Assembly (NCBI GenBank): GCA_030295235.1
Contig: AP026125.1
Location: 1,054,001-1,118,000, forward strand
Origin: Fistulifera solaris
Taxonomy: Eukaryota > Bacillariophyta > Bacillariophyceae > Naviculales > Stauroneidaceae
DNA: 64,000 nucleotides
Reading direction: 5' to 3'
Part shown: positions 11,043-45,151 of the stretch, in pieces
Layout of the letters: each line of letters opens with the position of its first letter
Position numbering within the stretch: position 1 is the stretch's first letter
Made by a program: the position numbers and the translations under genes
Notes under the pieces: model-generated
Databases searched by the model: none
What the model was told of the DNA's origin: nothing
Seen by the model: only the letters and a program-made list of their open reading frames with translations

Positions 11043-11615
11043 AGGTCGAATATCGTTTCATGGCTCGTATAATAAACGGTGTGTGTGTTCGATATGACAA
11101 AATGTCCGGGTACCCCTCTGTCGAAAAATTTCCCTACGAGAGCTACGTGAAATCGCGTAGACATTGGAAGCGTCGAATCTTTGTGATGTTCCATGTTTCA
11201 CTGTCCAACAAAAGTCTAATACTGTTTCATGGCTTGCACAAGCGATGTTGGGCAACGTTTTGTTGACATTGGTGTCCAAACGACGCGAAAGATGGTGTGT
11301 TCCAAATTGGACAATATCCGGGTATCCCCTCTGTCGATAAATTTCCCTACGAGAGCTACGTGAAATCGCGTAGACATTGGAAGCGTCGAAGCTTTGTGAT
11401 GTTCCATGTTTCACTGTCCAACAAAAGTCTAATACTGTTTCATGGCTTGCACAAGCGATGTTGGGCAACGTTTTGTTGACATTGGTGTCCAAACGACGCG
11501 AAAGATGGTGTGTTCCAAATTGGACAATATCCGGGTATCCCCTCTGTCGATAAATTTCCTATGAGAGCTACGTGAAATTACGTAGACATTCGAAGCGTTG
11601 TATTATTCATGGTTC
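11043..11615. repeat. Tandem repeat, period about 213 bases, ~2.6 copies
   Basis: The block GAGAGCTACGTGAAATCGCG followed by TAGACATTGGAAGCGTCGAA recurs with AGCTACG starting at 11141, 11354 and 11566, giving periods of 213 and 212. The block around GTTTCATGGCTTGCACAAGC recurs likewise. Copies 1 and 2 are nearly identical over about 150 bases; the third is truncated. The array lies upstream of both PIG-Q and RFC2. The period is a multiple of three, so a repeated 71-residue open frame appears on the minus strand, but it starts and ends arbitrarily and is probably not translated. Confidence 0.85.
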
Positions 11616-14835: not shown

Positions 14836-15827
14836 CGAGTTTAGCGAGATGCGTAGTTCATAGTGAATAAGTAATGTATAACAAGTAGATAAGCTAGCTT
14901 AAAACGACCTTTTGCTTGTCATCGTTTCATAAACGGGTGAACTATAAGCACGTATCACAAGTAAGGAACACTAGAAGTAGGCGTGTAACAAGCGTGTGGT
15001 GTGGTGTCTTCACGTCTCCAAAACTTCTGGGAGAAATGTGTCTTCAAATGCCCGCAGAAAATTCGAAAAGAGCAACGTTCGCGACTCAGAAGCCACACAT
15101 TCCAGGGAGTAGCCGCAAGGAAGTAGCATTATCTTTTGAAGGCTAAGAAGCGCGTCGTTAGTCGTTAGGCACCTCCTTGTCCTTGTCGTCAGGGTCTACT
15201 TGCGAAAAAGTATTTCGCCACGACTCCACTTCAGTCATGAATAATTTTGTGAAGGAATATCGATTGGTACGTGCGCTTCAAATGATGTGAACAGTCATTG
15301 CAATGTGATTTAATCATCAAAGCAACGAGCCATTTTAGCAAAGGAGCCTTGACTGTATAGCAGTGCGTGGCTCGGAAAGAATAGCGTCATGAACTGGCAT
15401 GCTGTCGTGGAAACAGGTAATCTTCACTCTAGTAGGAGTATAGTAAATACGGATAGCAACAGTAGCAACCATCCTCAAAAAATGAAGCTGAAAGCATTGT
15501 AATCTTGTAAGAGACTAATGAGCTTACCACGACGCAGGCATTGCGTTTAGTTGTATAGATCTAGCTGAAGCAATAATACTGTAAACTGAATGAACGGCGT
15601 GCAGTGGAAAACCAGTACGACTCACAATTTATACTGTACTGCGTATTGTAATGTTGATCGAATTATTATATACTGGTAGGCGATGCGACATCCAAGCTTT
15701 TTTACGACGACGGTGACGAATGAAGAATGAATTGCAAACGAGCGAATAGCAATTCTTTTACTACGTAGCTTGTAAGCATTTCCAAAGGTTAACGTGTTGT
15801 TTGCATATTCCAGTTTATGATAGAAGC
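14836..15827. other. Intergenic, about 1 kb
   Basis: This lies between HSP20 and TRM10, which share an orientation. It contains one copy of the dispersed hairpin motif (15218-15240). No credible coding frame: the 76-codon frame at 14916-15146 has no protein-like features. No tRNA is seen. Confidence 0.55.
15218..15240. repeat. Dispersed hairpin motif, copy a
   Basis: CCACGACT, six bases, then CAGTCATGA form an imperfect stem-loop. It matches the consensus CCACGACTG-n(4-6)-CAGTCATGAA found four more times in intergenic DNA of this window. Confidence 0.5.
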
Positions 15828-30083: not shown

Positions 30084-31382
30084 CAACAGATGAGAAGTGT
30101 AAACGTGTGTTGTGTTCTTGCTTGAATTGAAAGAGAAGAAGCTGCGTAGACTTCCGTTTTATGAGTGCGTTTGGAGCTGAGGAAATTTCAACGATCGCAT
30201 TCGCCTCGGTGCGGGTGTGTGAAGAATTAGTGCGAAGGAGAACTCAGAACATGGTCGCGAACAAAGAATTCTTTCCAGTTCAATCGGCATGCTGGCTCGC
30301 AGGAACGCGGAGTCGCACATTTAAATCGATTTGATTGGTCCAAACGAGAAACGCAACGAATTCACTCGTCCGTGTCCTACATGTTTCTCTATAGTAGCAG
30401 ACATACGAATGAAAAGACCGTTTTCACTTGTCCCGAAGGCAACAAAACTCCCGATTCCCAACAAAAAGACCGAAGCAAAACGCTTACGTTCGGAGGGAGT
30501 TTGGCATTCAAAAACCTTTTGAAAATGAGCGGTGGAGAGCGAACGAGGGCATCCGGTATACGTAATTAGAGCATGCTACGTGGCATAACGTGTTGCTCTT
30601 CAAAAATATTGCGCGAAATAGATGACGTAGGCTGGAGTCATCGCGGTCATCGTCAGTCGTCAGTTCAGAAAACTAATGCCGTGTTAATAACGTTTTTTTA
30701 TAAAAAAATATAATACTCAGTCGACGCACACGAAACAAAGATTAGTCGGCCTTCCTTTTCAAACATAAGCAAGACGTTAATGATAGACTAGAACTATCCC
30801 TCTAGTTTCAGAGATCTAGTTTTCTAGAGGGCCGCATCCTACGCGCCTCAGAACCTGAATCCACGAGAGAAGCAAACGATTTGTAAGGATTATCGTCGTA
30901 AACGATCAAGTAAAAGAATGCGAGTGTCCGTAGTCCTTCATACCGATGATATTCGCTTTTATAGAGCGATATAATATGTACTTTGAGACTTCGCGGTAAG
31001 AGAAGAATCGTCGTCCAGGTTCATGACTGAAATCCAGTCGTTGACTTGTCTAGAGCCTGCACGTCAGTAATGAAAATTTCGTAATGCCTTGCGAGTAGTC
31101 TATGTAGGGTAAATAGCAAATTTTTCCAATTTAGCACATTCCTACGCAAAGCTTAATTTATATCGGAAACCATACAGTCGAAAGTTTATCATTTTGGCTT
31201 GGGGGTCTGTATTAGGGTGGTTGTGCTGAGATAATTCATTCGCACCGTGTGTCTAGTTTAAACAATTACGCGCCGTGATATCCTAGTACCTTCACTTAAT
31301 TTAAATTATTTAAAAAACACAATGATCTCTTAATTGACTGCCTAAAACTCAGGTTAGTGAAATTGATCTTCTTTCGCTGAAA
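30084..31382. other. Intergenic, 1.3 kb
   Basis: Between allantoicase and the p24 gene. It contains an 8-base inverted repeat CCCTCTAG/CTAGAGGG (30798-30805 and 30824-30831) and one minus-strand copy of the dispersed hairpin (31021-31043). Small open frames here (30331-30569) lack protein-like composition. The stretch at 30660-30720 is very AT-rich. Confidence 0.5.
31021..31043 (-). repeat. Dispersed hairpin motif, copy b
   Basis: TCATGACTGAAATCCAGTCG; read on the minus strand it is AACGACTG, gattt, CAGTCATGAA, matching the family consensus with a 5-base loop. Confidence 0.5.
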
Positions 31383-35995: not shown

Positions 35996-37061
35996 ATGAA
36001 AAGGACATCTGACGAGAAATCCGCTTCATTTCCTTATCGAGATTGTTACCACTTGTTTGCAAGCCACACGACGTATCATTGTGCATTGAACGGTTGCGTT
36101 CCGTGCGCGTACAAGATTGGATGCTTTGATGTTGCGTTGGATAAAGAATTCTGTAAAGCCGCACCAAATCAACGACCCGAGCAGTGTCCTCGGTCTTTGA
36201 GCGAAAAGGGAGAATCGGGAACGCTGGGATATCAGAAGGGGATGAAAATTTTGACCGTTGGGGATGGTGATTTTTCATTTAGTTTAGCACTGGCTCGCAT
36301 CATATCAGGGAATGGTTTAATAGCAACGTCGTATGAATCTAAACAAACATTGATGCAGGTTTACCCTCAAATTGAAGTCACCATGGCCGAACTGGAGAGT
36401 TTGGGTGCAATACTGCACTTTCAGGTGGATGCAACGCGCATACGAGAGACGCTAGATACTGCGAGACCGGGTCTTTACGACCGGATCGTCTGGAATTTCC
36501 CCCTGTCAAGCAGTTGCCAAAGGACGAGACGGACAGAATGAAGAAATGGAGAACAACAAGAAGCTTGTTGCGGATTTCGTTTCTAATGCGAAAGGGCTAA
36601 TGGTGAGAAAAGGTGGACAAATTCATATCAATCACAAAACCAAGGTATGGGAAATGTCAAGGTTGAATTGATTGCTTTCCAATCGTTGCTCATTTTTCTT
36701 TCATCAGCCTCCCTTTAACCAATGGAAAATAGAGGATGTGGTAACGGCATCGTCTACAGACGCTCCTCAACTACACTATTACGGGCGAATTTGTTTCGAT
36801 CGTTGTTTGTTTCCACCATATATACCCCGCAAAGCCTTGGATAAGAAAAGTTTTCCCGTGCACGATGCCTGTACATATATTTTCGGTTTAGACGGTCAAA
36901 GCAATCCTTTATCCGACTCGGTTCACGAATGGGAAGGCTCACAAAATTCAAGCTTGCTTATTAAGGTGAATGAGGAAAGCATCTCGCATATTCGACAATC
37001 CATTCTAACTAGAAAAGACGTTTCCAATCGCATTCATAAGCGGCTAAAGTCAAGATATTAA
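35996..37061 (+). CDS. BMT5-like 25S rRNA (uridine-N3)-methyltransferase domain protein (one frame break)
   Basis: The domain is the Rossmann-like DUF2431 of fungal Bmt5 and plant homologues, which use S-adenosylmethionine; Bmt5 makes m3U2634 in 25S rRNA. The start is the ATG at 35996. The core begins MKILTVGDGDFSFSLALARI (SAM-binding GDGDFSFS), then TSYESKQTL, FQVDATRI and YDRIVWNFP. At the C5 run 36499-36503, one extra C shifts the frame. Without it the reading continues through KKLVADFVSNAKGLMVRKGG and IHINHKT to a GTATGG donor near 36643. After an intron, exon 2 (36707-37061) continues PPFNQWKIEDVVT and ends RLKSRY. Residues before the core carry several Cys and may bind metal. Confidence 0.85.
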
Positions 37062-37154
37062 TCTCTTTTTAACAAGTATGCCTCCAGTTCTCGGTCTGTC
37101 TTAGCTGGACTTTCGTTTCGATTGCGACATAAAGTCAAGTTGTTCTCCTTGCCA

Positions 37155-39159
37155 TCAGTATCCCATCTGGTACTGGGTTGGCTGTGCTGGGGGCGCTTGT
37201 TGCGGCTGGGTGGCCCACGGGTCTTGAGGTGGTTGCGGCTGGTACGGGTTATACCCTTGAGGTTGAGCCGATTGTTGATAAGCCTGAGCCGGCGGGTACG
37301 ACTGCTCTTGTTGATAAGGAACCATTGACTGTGTGGCTGGTGGTTGCTGGTAGGGCATGGAGGGGGCTCCCGGATAAGCTTGCGGTGCACCGGCTGGAAT
37401 CATTGCATTTTGATATGGCTGTCCGGGCATTGGATATGTTTGCTGAGGCACCTGCCCATAGCCAGCATTGGCAGCAACAGGGGCTTGGGCACCGTATGCC
37501 GCTGCGTACGGTGCCTGATCATACTGAGGGACAGCCGATTGGGACGGAACGTCATCCCAATTGTTAACATCCAACAAATCAGCCTCTTCACCAGGTTCGT
37601 CATCCTTCGTTTCTTGTGCGTGAATTTCGTCATCTCTTGCTGATCGGCCGCCTTCTCGTCCGTAGTCACTGCCACCGTCTGATATTGAAAAGAATCCGAT
37701 TAGTCGTGTTGCTTGTTTATAGGCAACCAACGAGTGTGACAGCAATCTAACTTACCGCGATCCTTTTCCTCTTGAGTCGGAGGCCGTCGAACAGCACCGG
37801 TAGCTCGAATGCCACCGCTCAGAGGTGTGTTGCGCATGCACTCTACCAACGCTTCACGCAAATCATCGACCTCCTTGGGATTATAAGATCCAAAAGCCGC
37901 AGCAATGGTCGGCCCATAATCCATCCACCGCTCCAGCTTGAACTGGCGTACCATTTTGTTGCCGTAGGCTTTCGTACGACACTGCGTCACCTGATATCCT
38001 CGTACGTTGGGCTTGTACAAATCATGAACAAAGTTGACCGCGAGTTTGATGAGAAAGTTGCGCTGCGTCTGATCATGATAAGGGTTATTTAACCAGTCAT
38101 CGAAATCTGCTTCCGAGCGAAAGAAAAGCATAGTGTGTGGTCCATAACGTATCCAGAAGACTTGTTTCCATTTCTTGATCACAATCGTGCGAAACGAGAT
38201 ACGCGCCAGTACATATCCCCGCTTTTGCACGAGTTCCGCCTTGGGAAGGGGAGAAGCGCCCATCGGAGCTTCTCGCGCTAGTTCGGTGCTGAATTTGTTG
38301 CGCGGTGATCCGGCCGGAATTTCGTCATTGGCCGAAACATTTTCGACATTGCGATACGCGGGGTGTTCATCGGCTCGTACCGACGGTGGTGCCTCACTTT
38401 TGGCTGATAACGCGGCAGACTGGCGACATCCGCAGTCGGAGCTGGAGCCGGCGCTGGCTGTGGGGCATTTCCAAAGAAATCAAGATCGTCCGCTGGCGGC
38501 GCGGTTTGCGGAGGGGGCGCATAGTGTTGCCCGTAGGCTCCAGGTTGCGGAGGAGGAACGGCCTGCGGGGTATACGAGGCTGGCGTAGGAGCTGGAGGAG
38601 GGGCCGTAGCAAAAGGATCGAACGGATTTCCGCCTGGTTGGGGTTGACTAGGCGCATACGCTCCGTAAGGATTACTTTGAGTCTGAGAAACGACCAGCGC
38701 ATTGTCGTAAGCAGGAGGCTGTTGAGCATAGGGGTTGCCTTGATATTGCGAAACAACGAGAGCATTGTCAATCGGTGGTTGAGGTGGAGCTGCGGCATAG
38801 GGAGCGTATGCGGAAGGAGCCGGGCCTTGTTCGGGTGGAGCATAAGGGGACGTTTGCTGCCCAAAAGGATTGTGACCATACGGATTGTAGTTTGCGGGGG
38901 CAGGAGGTTGCTGCTGCTGAGGAGGAGGCGCTGCGAATTGCTGAGACGATTCATAGGAGTAAGCTGAATAGCTCTGCCCTGCAACACTTTGATTGTCAGG
39001 TTGCCCATAGGCAGATACACCAAACGGATTACTCGGCTGCTGCTGCTGCTGCTGCTGCGGTGGTGCTGTATTTCCGCCGCCCGTTGCACCGAAAGGATTA
39101 CCGGCCATGGGAGCTTGACTTTGAGCAGAACCTCCAAAAGCAAACGGATTATCAGTCAT
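37155..39159 (-). CDS. NPF/DPF-rich protein with a central PH-like region (one frame break)
   Basis: This is probably an endocytic or vesicle-trafficking adaptor, by motif content only. The N-terminal ~250 residues are Pro/Gln-rich with NPF motifs (TDNPFAFG, GNPFGATG, SNPFGV, HNPFGQ) and a DPF (NPFDPFAT), the ligands of EH domains and AP-2 ears, plus two copies of DNALVVSQ. A central 150-residue domain (KAELVQKRGYVLARISFRT, WKQVFWIRYGPHTMLFFRS) looks like a pleckstrin-homology fold. A C-terminal acidic segment, DLLDVNNWDDV, precedes another Gln/Pro/Tyr-rich tail. Exon 1 is 39159-37756 and exon 2 is 37678-37155, with a 77-base GT-AG intron. The frame breaks at T4 38398-38401 (plus), one base short; restoring it links QPKSEAPPSV to the PH-like part. 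The family is not named. Confidence 0.7.
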
Positions 39160-39463
39160 GTTACGAGAAAAAGGTTCTTTCGCGGTAGGGTATCAGGTTT
39201 TTTTCTTATTAACAGGCTTCTCGTGGCAGTCGCATGTCAAAGATGCGTTGGGGCATCGTTTTGTTTTTCGCATGATCGATGTATTTCAGTTTCACACACG
39301 TGTCGGCGGTCGGCGCGGAGCAGATTTTGACAGGACAACTCTCCACTGTAGAGTACGAAGGAAAAAAGCCGATGAAGTGCCATAAGACAAAGGCGTAGTC
39401 GTACAGGTTTTCGGATCGCTATAATCCGTATTTACTATGCTCCCAAAGTGAAGACGACCTTCT

Positions 39464-39486
39464 CCAGACTGCATCCCAGTCATGAA
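39464..39486 (+). repeat. Dispersed hairpin motif, copy c
   Basis: CCAGACTG, catcc, CAGTCATGAA. It sits in the first unit of the 39.4-40.3 kb array. Confidence 0.5.
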
Positions 39487-39684
39487 TCAAATCATTCCGA
39501 GCCACACTGCTACACAAGAAGGGATCTTTCGGCTAACATGGTTCGCTATAATTGCTTATATCACATTGAAATGGTCAATAACATCTTTTGCGACGCACGT
39601 ATCGATCGATTCCGCCAGAAAATAACGGAGAGCCAATTTTTCTTGTATTTACTATACACCGAAAGTGTGATGGTCTCAACTTTG

Positions 39685-39708
39685 CCACGACTGCAATCCA
39701 GTCATGAA
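39685..39708 (+). repeat. Dispersed hairpin motif, copy d
   Basis: CCACGACTG, caatc, CAGTCATGAA. It sits in the second unit of the array, just before the MITE insertion site. Confidence 0.5.
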
Positions 39709-39723
39709 GCATGATGTTCCGAT

Positions 39724-40029
39724 TAGACATGTGACTCCCTCTAAAATTCTGTGGCAGTGAAGTGACTTCCATGGCAAGCTCTCGGCAGTGAAGTGGAAGT
39801 GAAATCACTCCCGTGTCGCACTGAGTATAGTATGTGCTAAACTGTACTCTTGTCAGTCACTTACTCTAGGGACTGCCTCAAGTGCACTAGGGTTTTGACT
39901 TCCTACGTAGCTTTACGTAGGTGTAGTACTTGGCAGTGAACCCTTTTGGCTTGGAAGTGAAGTGAAGTGGAAGTGAAATTTCCTCACGGCAGTGAAGTGG
40001 ACGTCAGCAGTGCAGAAGTCACATGTCTA
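39724..40029. mobile_element. MITE, hAT-like, 306 bp with 8-bp target duplication
   Basis: Perfect 13-base terminal inverted repeats, TAGACATGTGACT (39724-39736) and AGTCACATGTCTA (40017-40029), are directly flanked by the 8-base duplication GTTCCGAT (39716-39723 and 40030-40037). The interior has several copies of a subterminal block GGCAGTGAAGTGGAAGTGAAAT in one orientation. There is no coding capacity. The 8-base duplication and subterminal repeats fit hAT-type elements; TAGAC at the tip is close to, but not exactly, the usual hAT terminus. The unit 220 bases upstream carries the same locus without an insertion (ATTCCGAGCCACACTGC). Confidence 0.85.
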
Positions 40030-40215
40030 GTTCCGATCCGCACTGCTACACAACCGACGCTCGTTCCGCTATTGTAAGCGCGAATTGTCGTGGTCACAAT
40101 GCAGTTATCAACAGCAGCATTTTCACTGCACGCCTTCGAATTTTTACTTCGGAAAGCCAGGAGGCTTGCCTCAATCCAAATTTATTATATACCCATAAAT
40201 GTTGTCCGTTTATCT

Positions 40216-40238
40216 CCACGACTGTTTTCAGTCGTGAA
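40216..40238 (+). repeat. Dispersed hairpin motif, copy e
   Basis: CCACGACTG, ttt, CAGTCGTGAA. The eight bases CACGACTG and CAGTCGTG pair perfectly. It sits in the third unit of the array. Confidence 0.55.
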
Positions 40239-40260
40239 TCACTATTTTCCTAATCATAGA

Positions 40261-40811
40261 TTGCCTACCGGACCGCCGTTTCTTCTGCTTGTTAATCCAG
40301 AATGTTTTCATTACAATACAGCATCTTACAGTGTCATGTGCAATGTGTCCCTCAATTCATTTCGTCGATCGATAATGAATGATTGTGGAAATCCTTGTCA
40401 TCAGTATGTACTAAACCTGGTACACCTGACTTAGGTTTGAAAAGAAGTGGCCTAGTCTATGTCTATGCGAATGATGGGAGCCTTAAACGCATCAAGATTC
40501 CCTCCTTTTCACAGTAATACATACTAATGGACCGATTACATGAATCCAAATGCTGAATTACCTCAGTTTAATGGGTTGATAGTCTAGACAGCCGTGGACG
40601 CTTTTTACCACTTACGTTTCAATAGTAACCAGAGAGTAACTTATAGAACGCAGCAGCAACTGTTGAATGCGATACCATTTTAGCTGTAAACATCCCATGC
40701 TGTAGCCAGCGCGCAAAGCTCAACCGACAAAATAGTCGCAGCAAAAATCTGTTTGAGGCATAGCTATTCCATTTGTTAAAATTTCATGCGAACGTCCCGC
40801 CGTTCCCTAAT
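40261..40811. other. Intergenic, 551 bases
   Basis: Between the array and the small minus-strand gene. No coding or structural signal seen. Confidence 0.45.
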
Positions 40812-41114
40812 TCACCGTTTGCCTTTTTTTACCAAAGTCTTTGACTGCACCATCATATCGATCAGAGCCCATACTTGCAACTCTTGGGGCGATTTACAAC
40901 CATCGGAAGCGAGATTCTGTTCACGTTCCAGCGCCTCTAAAGCTTCTTTTCGCACTCGATCACCCACTTCAATGAGTGTTTTATCGAACAAGTCAGTGAA
41001 ACGCTTTGGGGCGCCATTCGGTTTGGCCAGTGCTTCGCCGAATAATGCAGCCAGTCTTTCGCGTCGCGACTCGTCCGTCGGCTCCAGTGAGAGAGAAAGG
41101 ATCAGTTCTTTCAT
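40812..41114 (-). CDS. Small uncharacterised protein, 100 aa
   Basis: This is an intact frame from an ATG at 41114 to a stop at 40812. It is almost entirely helical by composition: MKELILSLSLEPTDESRRE, LAALFGEALAKPNGAPKRF, TLIEVGDRVRKEALEALERE, ending QVWALIDMMVQSK. No Cys pairs, signal peptide or membrane span. I recognise no family. The composition and well-formed amphipathic helices favour a real gene. Confidence 0.5.
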   Translation of the reverse strand: MKELILSLSLEPTDESRRERLAALFGEALAKPNGAPKRFTDLFDKTLIEVGDRVRKEALEALEREQNLASDGCKSPQELQVWALIDMMVQSKTLVKKGKR

Positions 41115-41710
41115 ATCTTCTGTTTCTTTTCCGAATCTGACGACTTTGTCAGCAGAAACCGCGCAGGAAGCCTTGTGGCGGCGGGAACTCGAAACGCCAA
41201 TGAATCGTTATCGCAAAAAACGAATGTAAAGCATGCAATTATCACTGATAATCTCATCGTGAAAGTGAATTGGGAATTCGCTATTTATCTTGCGCAGTAG
41301 ATAGTGTCTCTGTATTGAAAGAGAGATTTTACTTAAAAATTTTCGAGAGAATTAAAGAGGATAGCCGTGTATTCGCATTGCCAGTGGGCTCTTCCTCGCA
41401 TGAGAAGATCATCATCTTCAAAAATCTCAAAACAACAAGATCCGCGATGCGGAGGAGAAAAAACCCGCGCTTTAGATTACCAGTATTTACCTTCTCGAAA
41501 CGTCATTCAGTACATTTACTTAACGATTTGGGTACCGTAAGGATGCCATAAATGTTTGCCCCCAACGCCCGCAACGCTTTTCGCGGACATTATAGTGCGA
41601 GACATTTCCTTTTGCATGCCGAAAGAAAAGATCTTACTTGCACGCTTTCAGCGAAAAAAACTTCCATTTCTTGGTTTCGTAGTGCCTTTTGTCAGAAACC
41701 GTAACCGAAT
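41115..41710. other. Divergent upstream region, 596 bases
   Basis: Between the small protein and the kinase. A plus-strand open frame at 41270-41551 is Arg/Lys-rich without protein-like pattern and is treated as leader sequence. Confidence 0.4.
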
Positions 41711-43246
41711 ATGGCAGAGCTATTTGAGCCTCAGCCAAAGGAATGGCCGGGAGAGGTTGAGAAAAAATACCAACGCTTTGAAGTTCTTGGAAAAGGTTCG
41801 TTCGGAATGGTTTGGATGTCACGAAGAACCGAAATTCCGGAAGACGAAAATGATGACGAATTTGTGGCGATCAAAGAAATTAAGATCAAAGACGAAAAGA
41901 GCGAAGTGTACGCAGAACGGGAAATTTCAATTCTGTCGGAAATCAAGCATCCGAATATTATCCGCATGATCCGAGCGTATCCTGTTTATAAAGGTTCCCG
42001 AGTCGTGGTGATGCAGCTGGCACGAGGACCCAACCTGCATCAACTTGTGGTCAAGAGGGGAGCGCTCGGACTCCCTCTTGCTCGACTTGTAAGCCGGGAA
42101 CTGATATCGGCTGTCTCGTATCTACACGGAAGAGCGGTTATTCACAGGGATATCAAGCCCAGCAACTGTATACTCGCGTGCAATGCATTGAAACCGACAG
42201 AAAACTACGACTGGACGAGAGATAACGCCATATGGAGCAGTAACGAAGATGCGGAACGTGCAGTAAGAGAAAAGCGATGGAAACTGTACCTTGTAGATTT
42301 TGGCTTTGCACGCGCTTTAGAAAAGGAGGAAATAGACGCACAGACACGTCATCTGCGAAACTCAATTCTTTTCGAAAATGCGCCACCCGCGGAGAAGCCC
42401 CAGCCACCGCAAAGTACAGAAATTCCTACTACCTTTAGGAACATTCGAGACAAAGTAATTGCCGAGGATGATTCAGCGGCTTCAGACGACGAAGCCTTGG
42501 CTCAAATGGTGGAAAATGCAGCGTCGAAAATGAGAAATACGTCCTTTACGCCAACTAACAATATTGAGGACGAGATCATGGGTACTGGAGGCAGGCGGCA
42601 AAGACTTTCCGGTATTTCTATGCAAATTCCTGAGAGTATGCCGAAGAGTAACAAGCGCGTATCTCATGCTCGACAAAACATTCGATCGATGAGTGCTCTG
42701 GGTACAAAAGCGTACGCAGCTCCAGAAATCAGGAAGAAACTCAGACACAAGACAGAAGAAGATCTAGGCAAAGAAAACGCGGCTTTAACAGAATGTGTAG
42801 CTGATTATGGAATGATCGTGGATGCCTATTCAGTGGGCTGGACGCTTCGAGTTGCGATAACTGGTGTCCCACCGAACTTTACTTTGTCCGAATACATGAA
42901 GGAGCGTGAGTCCGTCGTTTTAGACAGTCAAGAGGAAGAAGAAATAGCTTCCTTAGGGTGCTGCTGCTTCTTTTCTGGAGCTGCGCAGCCGCTAGTAAAG
43001 GTTCGCGATCCATCGCAAATTCCTCGTGAAGCAATGCTGTTAATCACCAGTATGACCGAAAAGAAACCAGAGGATCGAATGACCGTTCGGGAAGCTCAGC
43101 TGCATCCTTACATTGCAGGAGGATCAGGGGAAGAATCATACAGTCCTCCTCAAGGTGACATCCCATCTAGCCACGGAGATCCTGTTGTTCCCCTGGTATG
43201 CGCTTCCGCACTTTCAAAGCTGACCATCAAATATCACATGACATAA
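41711..43246 (+). CDS. Protein Ser/Thr kinase with a ~140-residue activation-segment insert
   Basis: This is an intact 511-residue frame from an ATG at 41711. Kinase motifs: glycine loop GKGSFG (27-32), catalytic Lys in FVAIKEIKIK (55), YAEREISILSEIKHPNI (helix C Glu), catalytic loop VIHRDIKPSN (143-152), DFG (196-198), and GTKAYAAPEI (331-340). All catalytic residues are present, so activity is expected. The distance from DFG to APE is about 140 residues, against about 20-35 normally, and is filled by an acidic, Ser/Arg-rich sequence with possible phosphosites. HRDIKPSN to DFG is also lengthened to ~45. The late lobe has LGCCCFFSGAA, a Cys cluster that could be acylated or redox-active. The group is not assignable by eye. 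Confidence 0.88.
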   Translation: MAELFEPQPKEWPGEVEKKYQRFEVLGKGSFGMVWMSRRTEIPEDENDDEFVAIKEIKIKDEKSEVYAEREISILSEIKHPNIIRMIRAYPVYKGSRVVVMQLARGPNLHQLVVKRGALGLPLARLVSRELISAVSYLHGRAVIHRDIKPSNCILACNALKPTENYDWTRDNAIWSSNEDAERAVREKRWKLYLVDFGFARALEKEEIDAQTRHLRNSILFENAPPAEKPQPPQSTEIPTTFRNIRDKVIAEDDSAASDDEALAQMVENAASKMRNTSFTPTNNIEDEIMGTGGRRQRLSGISMQIPESMPKSNKRVSHARQNIRSMSALGTKAYAAPEIRKKLRHKTEEDLGKENAALTECVADYGMIVDAYSVGWTLRVAITGVPPNFTLSEYMKERESVVLDSQEEEEIASLGCCCFFSGAAQPLVKVRDPSQIPREAMLLITSMTEKKPEDRMTVREAQLHPYIAGGSGEESYSPPQGDIPSSHGDPVVPLVCASALSKLTIKYHMT

Positions 43247-43621
43247 AATGGATTTCGCAATTCAGCCCAACAAACTTCTCAATGTACTATGATGAGACAA
43301 GGTTCTAGCTAGAATATATGTATAAAATGTGAAAGTGGCGATTTTGAAAAAAGCTATAGTCTAGGCGCCTTATGTAGCCCTAGCGATTTATAATTGTCCG
43401 CGTGCACGCGCGGAGGAAAATTGCACCTCTGGGAACCCGGAAATGAACACGTACGAGAACAGAGCCGATCAATTTGAAAGCCAACCAAAAGAAAAACCGA
43501 AGAATTTGCGATCCTTTCGATTCATTCGATTCATTGCAGACGAGACACTGGAGTAAAATTTTCAACCTAGAATCACTAAGTTTCTTCGTTGCCCAGTCTG
43601 TCATTTTACTCAATATCAACC
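43247..43621. other. Intergenic, 375 bases
   Basis: Between the kinase and RRS1, which share an orientation. Nothing recognised. Confidence 0.45.
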
Positions 43622-45151
43622 ATGGTAGCGAAGAAACAAAAGACGAAGAAAAGCAAGAATGTTGAAGAAGAGGAAGTCGACTATGCCGCAGTCGCTGACC
43701 AGTTTGCCGACCTTTCCGACCACGATAGCGTCGAAGAGGGCGACGACGACGATGATGACGATGAAAACGATGAGTCAGCCAGTGGGGATAGTGGTGATTC
43801 AAATGATGAAAACGAGAATAGCGGAAGTGATGACGATAAAGAGGATTCGGAAGACCACGATGATTCGGAAGAGCACGATGATTCGGAAGGAGACGAAGAG
43901 GACGATGATGGCGAAGAGGACAACATCGCGAGGAAAATTACAACGAACTCGTTTGCTGGCCCAGAACCATGTTCTTTCGATATGCATAATTTGTTAGCGA
44001 TCAACTCTCACCAAATGGACACATCGAAAATGTACATTAAGAAAGCAGGAAAATACAATGATGAAGAAGACATAACAATACCACCTGAATCGTTGGAGCT
44101 TGCCGTGAACGAGAAGTATCTTTTAGAGAAGGCTGCTTCCGGTTGCACCCAGCTCATTGCTGCCCTTTGGCAACTTCCGATCGAGTCTAGTGACGTCGGC
44201 CCCATGGTATCCTTGCCAATTCATGATGGAAGTAAAATACCTCGTCAGCTGGTACGTTTATGCTCACTTTCTCGATGCTCTTTCCTCTTGGTTCAACACC
44301 TCTAACGCCATTATACAGCCCCTCCACCTCCCAAAAAGGAAACAAAATGGGAAAAGTTTGCCAAACTAAGAGGCATTTCACTGAACAAGGAAAAGAGATC
44401 ACAAAAGGTGTTCGATGAAGCTACTGGAGAATGGATGTATCGACATGGTTATCGAAAGGCGAATGATGACACGAAAGAGTGGCCTATTATGGAAGTCAAG
44501 GGTAATGACGACCCTTACGCTGATCCTTGGGAAAAGCAGCGCGAAGAGAAGCGTTCTCGCAAGGATAAGAATATGGAAAGTCGTATGCGAAATGAAGAGC
44601 GCGCTGGCAATCTCGTCAAAGGCACGACGAACAAACTTCTGAAAAACCGAGATAAAGCCCGCATGGCCGGGAAGGCCGGTGGTGATCTCGATCGCTACAA
44701 CGTTCCACCTTCCGGTGTTCCAGTAGACTTGAAACCGACAAAAGGCAGCGGTGATATCAAGAGTATGAAACGTGGAAAAGCGTCCATCACGAACGCTTTA
44801 TTGGCTACCCAGCGTTCTACGGCATCGCTTGGAAACTTTGACAAGATGTTGGAAGGAGAACCAGAGCGGAAGAAGAATCATATCGGTGCAAAGAAGCGCA
44901 AATACGAAGGAAGTACGGATAAGGCGGTCATTTCCACTGAGGCTGAACGGGCTATGAAAGTTTTCAAGCACGTAGTTGATGGAGGCGGTGCGCAGAAAGA
45001 GAAAGCTCGACTGAAGGGCCGTCTGGCGAAGGGAGAAACGGCGTACGACTATGAATTCAACGACGGGTTGGGTCCTTCAACCTTTCAAAAGAAGAAAGGG
45101 CGTGCTGCAGCTGGCAAGATGAAGAAAATGACCAAGAAGCGCATCAAGTAA
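43622..45151 (+). CDS. RRS1: Ribosome biogenesis regulatory protein RRS1 (one frame break at the splice junction)
   Basis: Rrs1 assembles 5S RNP with Rpf2 into the 60S precursor in the nucleolus. Exon 1 (43622-44251) has a Lys-rich start, a ~90-residue Asp/Glu/Ser tract, then ELAVNEKYLLEKAASGCTQL and IAALWQLP, the Rrs1 core. A 67-base GT-AG intron follows. Exon 2 (44319-45151) carries KWEKFAKLRGISLNKEKRS, VFDEATGEWMYRHGYRKAND and DDPYADPWEK. The two exons do not join in frame: the C4 run at 44319-44322 is one base short, and a fifth C gives a Pro run then KKETKWEKF. The acidic N-terminal extension is much longer than in yeast. The C-terminus is Lys-rich (MKKMTKKRIK). Confidence 0.92.

Follow-up and report, generated by a model that had tools for sequence, protein, structure and literature searches.

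The stretch of Fistulifera solaris DNA analysed here, 64,000 nucleotides on contig C5 (the window), contains a 306-bp element that is well supported as an ordinary hAT MITE; the family is new, and its kind is already known. With a probability of roughly 85%, we favor a history in which this MITE was mobilised in trans and amplified in one parent's lineage shortly before hybridisation, and in which a larger transposase-bearing element on contig C8 represents a sister lineage. An hAT transposase supplied in trans would recognise the 13-bp ends of the MITE and its subterminal GTGAAGTG repeats, and the MITE would be excised and reinserted through an 8-bp staggered cut that produces the flanking duplication, a cut-and-paste route taken from known hAT biology. 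Amplification would have occurred in one parent's lineage shortly before the parental genomes joined, leaving no close MITE copy on the other parental chromosomes, which is the distribution observed for the labelled contigs.

The MITE occupies positions 39724-40029 of the window (+ strand), with boundaries set by script and by genome search. The 13-base perfect inverted ends claimed in the initial annotation were confirmed by script on the window copy. The terminal inverted repeat (TIR) TAGACATGTGACT lies at 39724-39736 (+) and 40017-40029 (-) and is perfect over exactly 13 bp, the inverted identity ending at base 14. The perfect 8-bp target-site duplication (TSD) GTTCCGAT, also claimed there and found by sequence reading and script, flanks the element at 39716-39723 and 40030-40037. 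A simple model with equal base frequencies predicts about 1e-5 chance occurrences per 64 kb of a 13-bp TIR with an 8-bp TSD at a spacing of 100-1000 bp.

The repeated subterminal block that had been noted is real. The motif CAGTGAAGTG occurs at element positions 32, 63 and 267, and AGTGAAGTG additionally at positions 233 and 238, all in a single orientation. The 5' CAGTGAAGTG repeats (positions 32 and 63; window 39755-39795, +) are probable transposase-binding sites; the 3' AGTGAAGTG/CAGTGAAGTG repeats (positions 233, 238 and 267) lie at 39956-39999 (+). A similar motif layout was seen in larger relatives on C8, C10, C18 and C54. The internal stretch at 39830-39902 (+), approximately element positions 107-179, is specific to the MITE and unmatched in the C8 element. 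No ORF of at least 80 aa was found inside the 306 bp, in agreement with the earlier statement that there is no internal gene.

Copies of the element in the genome

A search of the genome (51.7 Mb, 61 contigs) with the MITE gave 17 matches: seven MITE loci, a 62-bp left end, eight matches representing the two ends of four larger elements, and a 117-bp relic. The seven loci, window included (C5, C15, C21, C40, C45, C17 and C25:850868), were 94-100% identical. Six are complete (C5, C15, C21, C40, C45 and C17), each with a different perfect 8-bp TSD, and the seventh, on C25, has lost its left 31 bases. The expectation that other copies would be found in the genome was thus borne out, and the outcome of no other copies is false. 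The copies on C5, C15, C21 and C40 differ pairwise at 1-4 of 306 positions, and among complete copies the pairs involving C45 or C17 differ at 13-17; the C45 copy has one end mismatch in its TIR. A perfect 8-bp TSD was absent in the C18 and C54 elements, the shortened C25 copy and the C25 fragment. This fragment, the 62-bp left end (L013 2003-2064; C25:831602), is flanked by the 7-bp repeat TCTGGAT and may reflect a one-ended insertion or a later deletion. The 117-bp relic, on C18, shares 73% identity with the MITE and is possibly an old copy. Exact TAGACNTGTGACT sites numbered 33 in the genome, 22 of them in the elements described here or in C30 and 11 elsewhere. The chance expectation is approximately 6 (12 fixed letters), and a control with the reversed pattern had 0 sites in the forward and 3 in the reverse orientation.

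One could suppose that the window sequence is no transposon at all but either part of a tandem array or an inverted repeat, flanked by repeats, that arose by chance. The window MITE does lie inside diverged repeat units, which are themselves dispersed, but the six complete copies share exact ends and differ in their flanks and in their perfect TSDs, and no such repeat lies within 300 bp of three of the MITE loci. The six complete copies with different perfect TSDs refute membership in a tandem array, and we regard the whole alternative as having a negligible probability. The five complete copies outside the window settle the status of the element as a transposon without recourse to any empty site.

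The element is short, non-coding and multicopy, with TIR and TSD, as is usual for a MITE, and seven loci is a low copy number for one. Its hAT-like character, as first read, is supported by the copies, the TSDs and the hAT transposase in a related larger element. Hermes belongs with the Ac family. Members of the hAT superfamily (Ac family: hobo, Hermes) have 8-bp TSDs and short TIRs, as does the MITE; an 8-bp TSD was found in 6/6 complete MITE copies and in the larger C8 and C10 elements, and the TIR of 13 bp falls within the hAT range of 5-27 bp given in PMC3517528. That article also describes Mar, a Drosophila hAT MITE family of the Buster type (TSD nnnTAnnn) with about 94 sequences in D. 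willistoni, as against seven loci here. As described there, Mar resembles the present case in being a gene-less MITE with an 8-bp TSD and a larger-hAT origin, accompanied by a broken full-length relic in the same genome.

Larger relatives and a second hAT family

The initial annotation placed the transposase source elsewhere in the genome. This was borne out to the extent that an hAT element with matching ends (~88% identity) is present on C8; in this assembly we detected none that combines ends identical to those of the MITE with an intact transposase, and the MITE's exact source is therefore missing from it. The C8 element (757478-761926) is 4449 bp long, has the TSD CCAGTGAA on both flanks, and ends in TAGACTTGTGACT and AGTCACATGTCTA, which match in inverted orientation at 12/13 positions. 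Its first 106 and last 127 bases are 88.7% and 87.5% identical to the MITE, and the MITE middle (about 107-179, ~73 bp) has no counterpart in it.

The last ORF of the C8 element encodes an hAT dimerisation domain (PF05699, E = 4.9e-17 in Pfam), as in known hATs, and the other four of its five ORF pieces had no match in Pfam. Searched against PDB, the piece bearing PF05699 matched four transposase chains at E = 9e-9 to 1.4e-8, including two with the name Hermes; the remaining six rows were weak and unrelated. An hAT transposase domain is thus present in an element whose ends are 88% identical, not identical, to those of the MITE. The C8 transposase is fragmented: its open pieces are spread over three frames, and a conserved stretch contains a stop. 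The frame interruptions may in part be introns.

A read-through search with the C8 region, in which only the candidates sharing most words were scored, gave 9 proteins at E up to 1e-3, including FisN_2Lu388 of Fistulifera solaris and a less interrupted 490-aa protein. FisN_2Lu388, which has an hAT C-terminal domain, matches the opening and closing parts of the C8 transposase region at 98-100% identity and the interrupted middle at 56%. Because of these identities, it is probably the same element as C8 or an allelic one; its 446-aa gene model leaves out a portion of the stretch where C8 is interrupted, and the matched record shows no TIR, TSD or MITE.

Three shorter elements are internal deletions of the C8 type, 96-99% identical to the C8 element. 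The C10 element is 1377 bp long with the TSD ATCAAGGT, and those on C18 (859 bp) and C54 (850 bp) represent one common insertion in a duplicated chromosome end. The duplicated segment was seen at the C18 end (L012) and on C54 (L011), with related sequence at C24, C4, C52, C32 and C45.

The existence of these derivatives makes it natural to ask whether the MITE is itself a direct internal deletion of the C8 element, mobilised by it, in which case the subgenomes would be irrelevant. The near-identical TIR, the similar subterminal repeats and the 8-bp TSDs speak for such an origin, as does the fact that true C8-type deletions (C10, C18) occur. The MITE ends, however, are only ~88% identical to C8, compared with 96-99% for the real derivatives, and the ~73-bp MITE middle is unmatched. 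We rejected a direct deletion on these two points and consider it improbable. The same end identity and unmatched middle suggest that C8 is not the exact progenitor but belongs to a sister hAT lineage carried by the second parent.

Matches to the transposase C-terminal end on C39, C26 and C24 (two) proved to be elements of 590-598 bp that form a second hAT MITE family of four copies (L059 4791-5384, L060 4805-5397, L062 4365-4962 and L061 4307-4896). In three of the four, both ends carry the TIR TAGAGGTGTGGCT and the 8-bp TSD is perfect; in the fourth, the ends are altered and the TSD has decayed. These elements, of a 594-bp type, enclose a piece of the transposase C-terminal end. Three copies differ from one another at 3-12 of ~594 positions, and the fourth differs from them at 32-37 of ~580. 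A search with one copy gave 9 matches: the four copies, a 57-bp piece that adjoins one C24 copy, one weak match in C8 and three in C43.

The two hAT families have 11 perfect TSDs between them, and all fit nYnnnnRn, a pattern noticed afterwards and counted with imperfect TSDs left out. Position 2 was T in 6/11 and C in 5/11; position 7 was A in 7/11 and G in 4/11. The pattern contains the Ac-type nTnnnnAn reported for hobo (PMC8961557) but is looser. The Buster pattern nnnTAnnn was not seen as a rule here, TA occupying positions 4-5 in 1/11 TSDs (C21).

A diverged hAT transposase region was also present on C30 (L063 1-6215), with a right end TAGACATGTGACT followed by TTCTGTGG. The first 8 kb contain a single occurrence of the latter, and on the left the region enters telomeric CCCTAA repeats, so C30 is not demonstrable as a complete element. 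Its left side is possibly a chromosome end healed inside a transposon.

Distribution between the two subgenomes

Positions 36500-44500 of the window aligned with contig C6 at 81-89% identity in three long blocks. Ten 300-base coding chunks taken beside ten element loci were used as queries for homoeologs; a single homoeologous contig was obtained for 9/10, at 82-93% identity, and the tenth, from the C18 end, matched several chromosome ends. The pairs were C15/C16, C21/C22, C40/C41, C45/C46, C17/C18, C25/C26 (two loci), C8/C7 and C10/C9, which with C5/C6 makes nine tested pairs. On these alignments, the genome appears to behave as an allodiploid. Next to the MITE is a kinase ORF that shares 96% identity with FisN_4Lh476 of Fistulifera solaris. 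The C6 kinase copy is nearer to this protein, at 99% identity over 222 aa in one frame and 97% over 303 aa in another. The two frames of the C6 gene (L064 5236-6767) may reflect a frame break, an intron or an assembly error. The GC content of C5 exceeds that of C6 in the two blocks compared (51.0 v 50.3% and 45.9 v 44.7%), which would fit Fso_h, and the letter L in the two FisN names may mark the other subgenome.

Contigs were labelled X when they carried a 31-base tag of family A, a ~213-bp tandem repeat found in the window at 11101-11609, and Y when they were partners of such contigs. The tag had 98 exact matches in the genome and 0 in the control, and occurred on C1, C3, C5, C7, C9, C11, C13, C15, C17, C19, C21, C23, C25, C27, C28, C30, C32, C34 and C40. 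Within the eight tag-carrying pairs it was absent from every partner (C6, C8, C10, C16, C18, C22, C26 and C41), and neither C45 nor C46 carried it. The tag is thus a ready subgenome marker, independent of transposons.

Six MITE loci and the 62-bp fragment, 7/7 of those that could be labelled, lie on X (C5, C15, C17, C21, C25 twice and C40); C45 is untagged. The tag-labelled contigs with the MITE were thus on one side in 6/6 cases, and their partners had no match of 94% or more. In the genome search, none of the partners in the nine pairs had a MITE match at or near the homoeologous place. The C8-type loci were found on Y in 3/3 labelled cases (C8, C10 and C18), with C54 untagged; the label of the C18 locus is weaker, its segment being duplicated on several chromosome ends. 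The second family was also on Y in 4/4 copies, C26 by its tested partner and the two on C24 and one on C39 by contig numbering. The C23/C24 and C38/C39 pairings are taken from that numbering, C23 carrying an exact tag and C38 looser family A matches only.

The one-sided exact probability of this division is 2.9e-4 for 7 X versus 7 Y loci and 0.0011 for 6 versus 6 contigs, counts that are small, that come from a grouping found after looking, and that leave out the C18 73% relic, the C30 relative and the C43 weak matches. For the seven X loci versus the three C8-type loci the probability is 0.008, and with tested partners only (7 versus 4) it is 1 in 330. Reciprocal subgenome confinement of the hAT families is likely, over few loci. 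The simplest reading is that each parent had its own young hAT burst and that no close copy has crossed since hybridisation. Taken further, a young hAT MITE family of its own would be private to each subgenome, with none crossed either way; the near-identity of the copies would make hybridisation very recent relative to the parental split and would speak against a burst set off by the merger, a combination towards which we lean.

At fourfold sites in four ORFs, C5 and C6 differ at 83/517 positions (16%, corrected 0.18). Since the young MITE copies differ at 1-4 in 306 positions, the last X-side activity would be recent relative to the split, at about 2-7% of it if equal neutral rates are assumed. 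The same small differences, which make the last events recent, are also what is expected if the MITE was still mobile after hybridisation, its presence in one subgenome being due to chance or to an insertion bias (chromatin, tandem repeats). We consider this second explanation unlikely, although less so than the direct deletion of C8. Under random placement after the merger, the probability that all three further young MITEs would fall on X and both further young second-family copies on Y is about 1/32. This figure favors MITE activity before hybridisation and does not prove it.

A comparable pattern is described for subgenome-specific transposons of allopolyploids in PMC10235133, which treats such elements as markers that arose in the progenitors. 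Repeats that multiplied in one parent ahead of hybridisation label that parent's chromosomes, as proposed here; the word 'diatom' has 0 occurrences in the main text of that article. For F. solaris, the subgenomes have been assigned tentatively by GC ratio and codon usage (PMC5935921); the same article names a transposon-relic method as an alternative that needs long-read, robust assemblies, and its authors state that allopolyploidy had not been reported earlier in eukaryotic microalgae. The elements were undescribed among the matches listed in a search of open-licence PMC titles and abstract openings for F. solaris or diatom transposons, satellites and subgenomes. Reciprocal private hAT MITEs and the 98-copy tag together offer an independent test of the F. 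solaris subgenome assignment. They can also be used to check the suspected exchange on chromosome 10 and to set a relative clock for the hybridisation, and the one-sided MITE copies may help to separate the two parental genomes.

Tandem repeats at the insertion sites

The initial annotation put the MITE in the third of three tandem units. Profile matches placing all three show it in the middle one. The first unit (39405-39602, +), of the family B type, is uninterrupted at the corresponding place, the second (39641-40133, +) is split by the MITE, and the third (40152-40345, +), found by profile only, is also uninterrupted. The neighboring unit had been offered as a natural empty site. Both adjacent units are indeed uninterrupted, but they serve as rough empty sites only, because the units are diverged (the first and second are only ~74% identical) and the third was detected by profile alone. 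The homoeologous region on C6 has no MITE, and its unit is continuous across the target (L064 3866-3906, 83% over 41 bp). C6 has one full unit, whose longer alignment, 70% over 222 bp, is to the first unit of the window, which means that it may lack strict orthology with the unit that the MITE splits.

Families A and B together make up 2.2% of the window. Family B, a 229-bp repeat, had 44 exact tag matches, 42 on family A-tagged contigs and two elsewhere (C2 and C31), and a looser search had C2, C31 and the tested partner C16 among the matches listed; the family is strongly biased to X and is not exclusive to it. On C25, an array at L020 2261-3886 is a homogenised 216-229-bp tandem repeat, profile-related to the units around the MITE.

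The insertion-bias form of the rival explanation draws on these repeats. Two of the seven MITE loci lie inside them (C5 in a family B unit and C21 in a family A array), a third abuts them (C25, between A and B units that are 1 and 20 bp distant), and a fourth, on C17, is 83 bp from a B unit; the larger elements on C8, C10 and C18 have no A/B repeat at this range (300 bp). An insertion preference for A/B repeats is possible from these seven loci, and because the homogenised A and B arrays are mostly on X, such a preference could send MITE insertions there. Against this, A/B repeats were absent within 300 bp of 3/7 MITE loci (C15, C40 and C45) and of the 62-bp fragment, and a preference for X repeats leaves unexplained the second MITE family and the C8 type, both on the opposite subgenome. 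Amplification in one parent's lineage before hybridisation remains the preferred reading.

On one homoeolog the MITE sits upstream of the ORF at 38278-39159 (-), 565 bp from its start; the other homoeolog is without the MITE, which provides a natural promoter comparison for this ORF. Rfam had no match to 39000-40800 at E values up to 1. Diverged intergenic units of ~200-220 bp occur at 39405-40345 and also at 15267-15463 and 31015-31077, and contain the hairpin GACTGNNNNCAGTCRTGAA. This hairpin has 44 exact copies in the genome, compared with 0 for a reversed-pattern control, and is found in both subgenomes.
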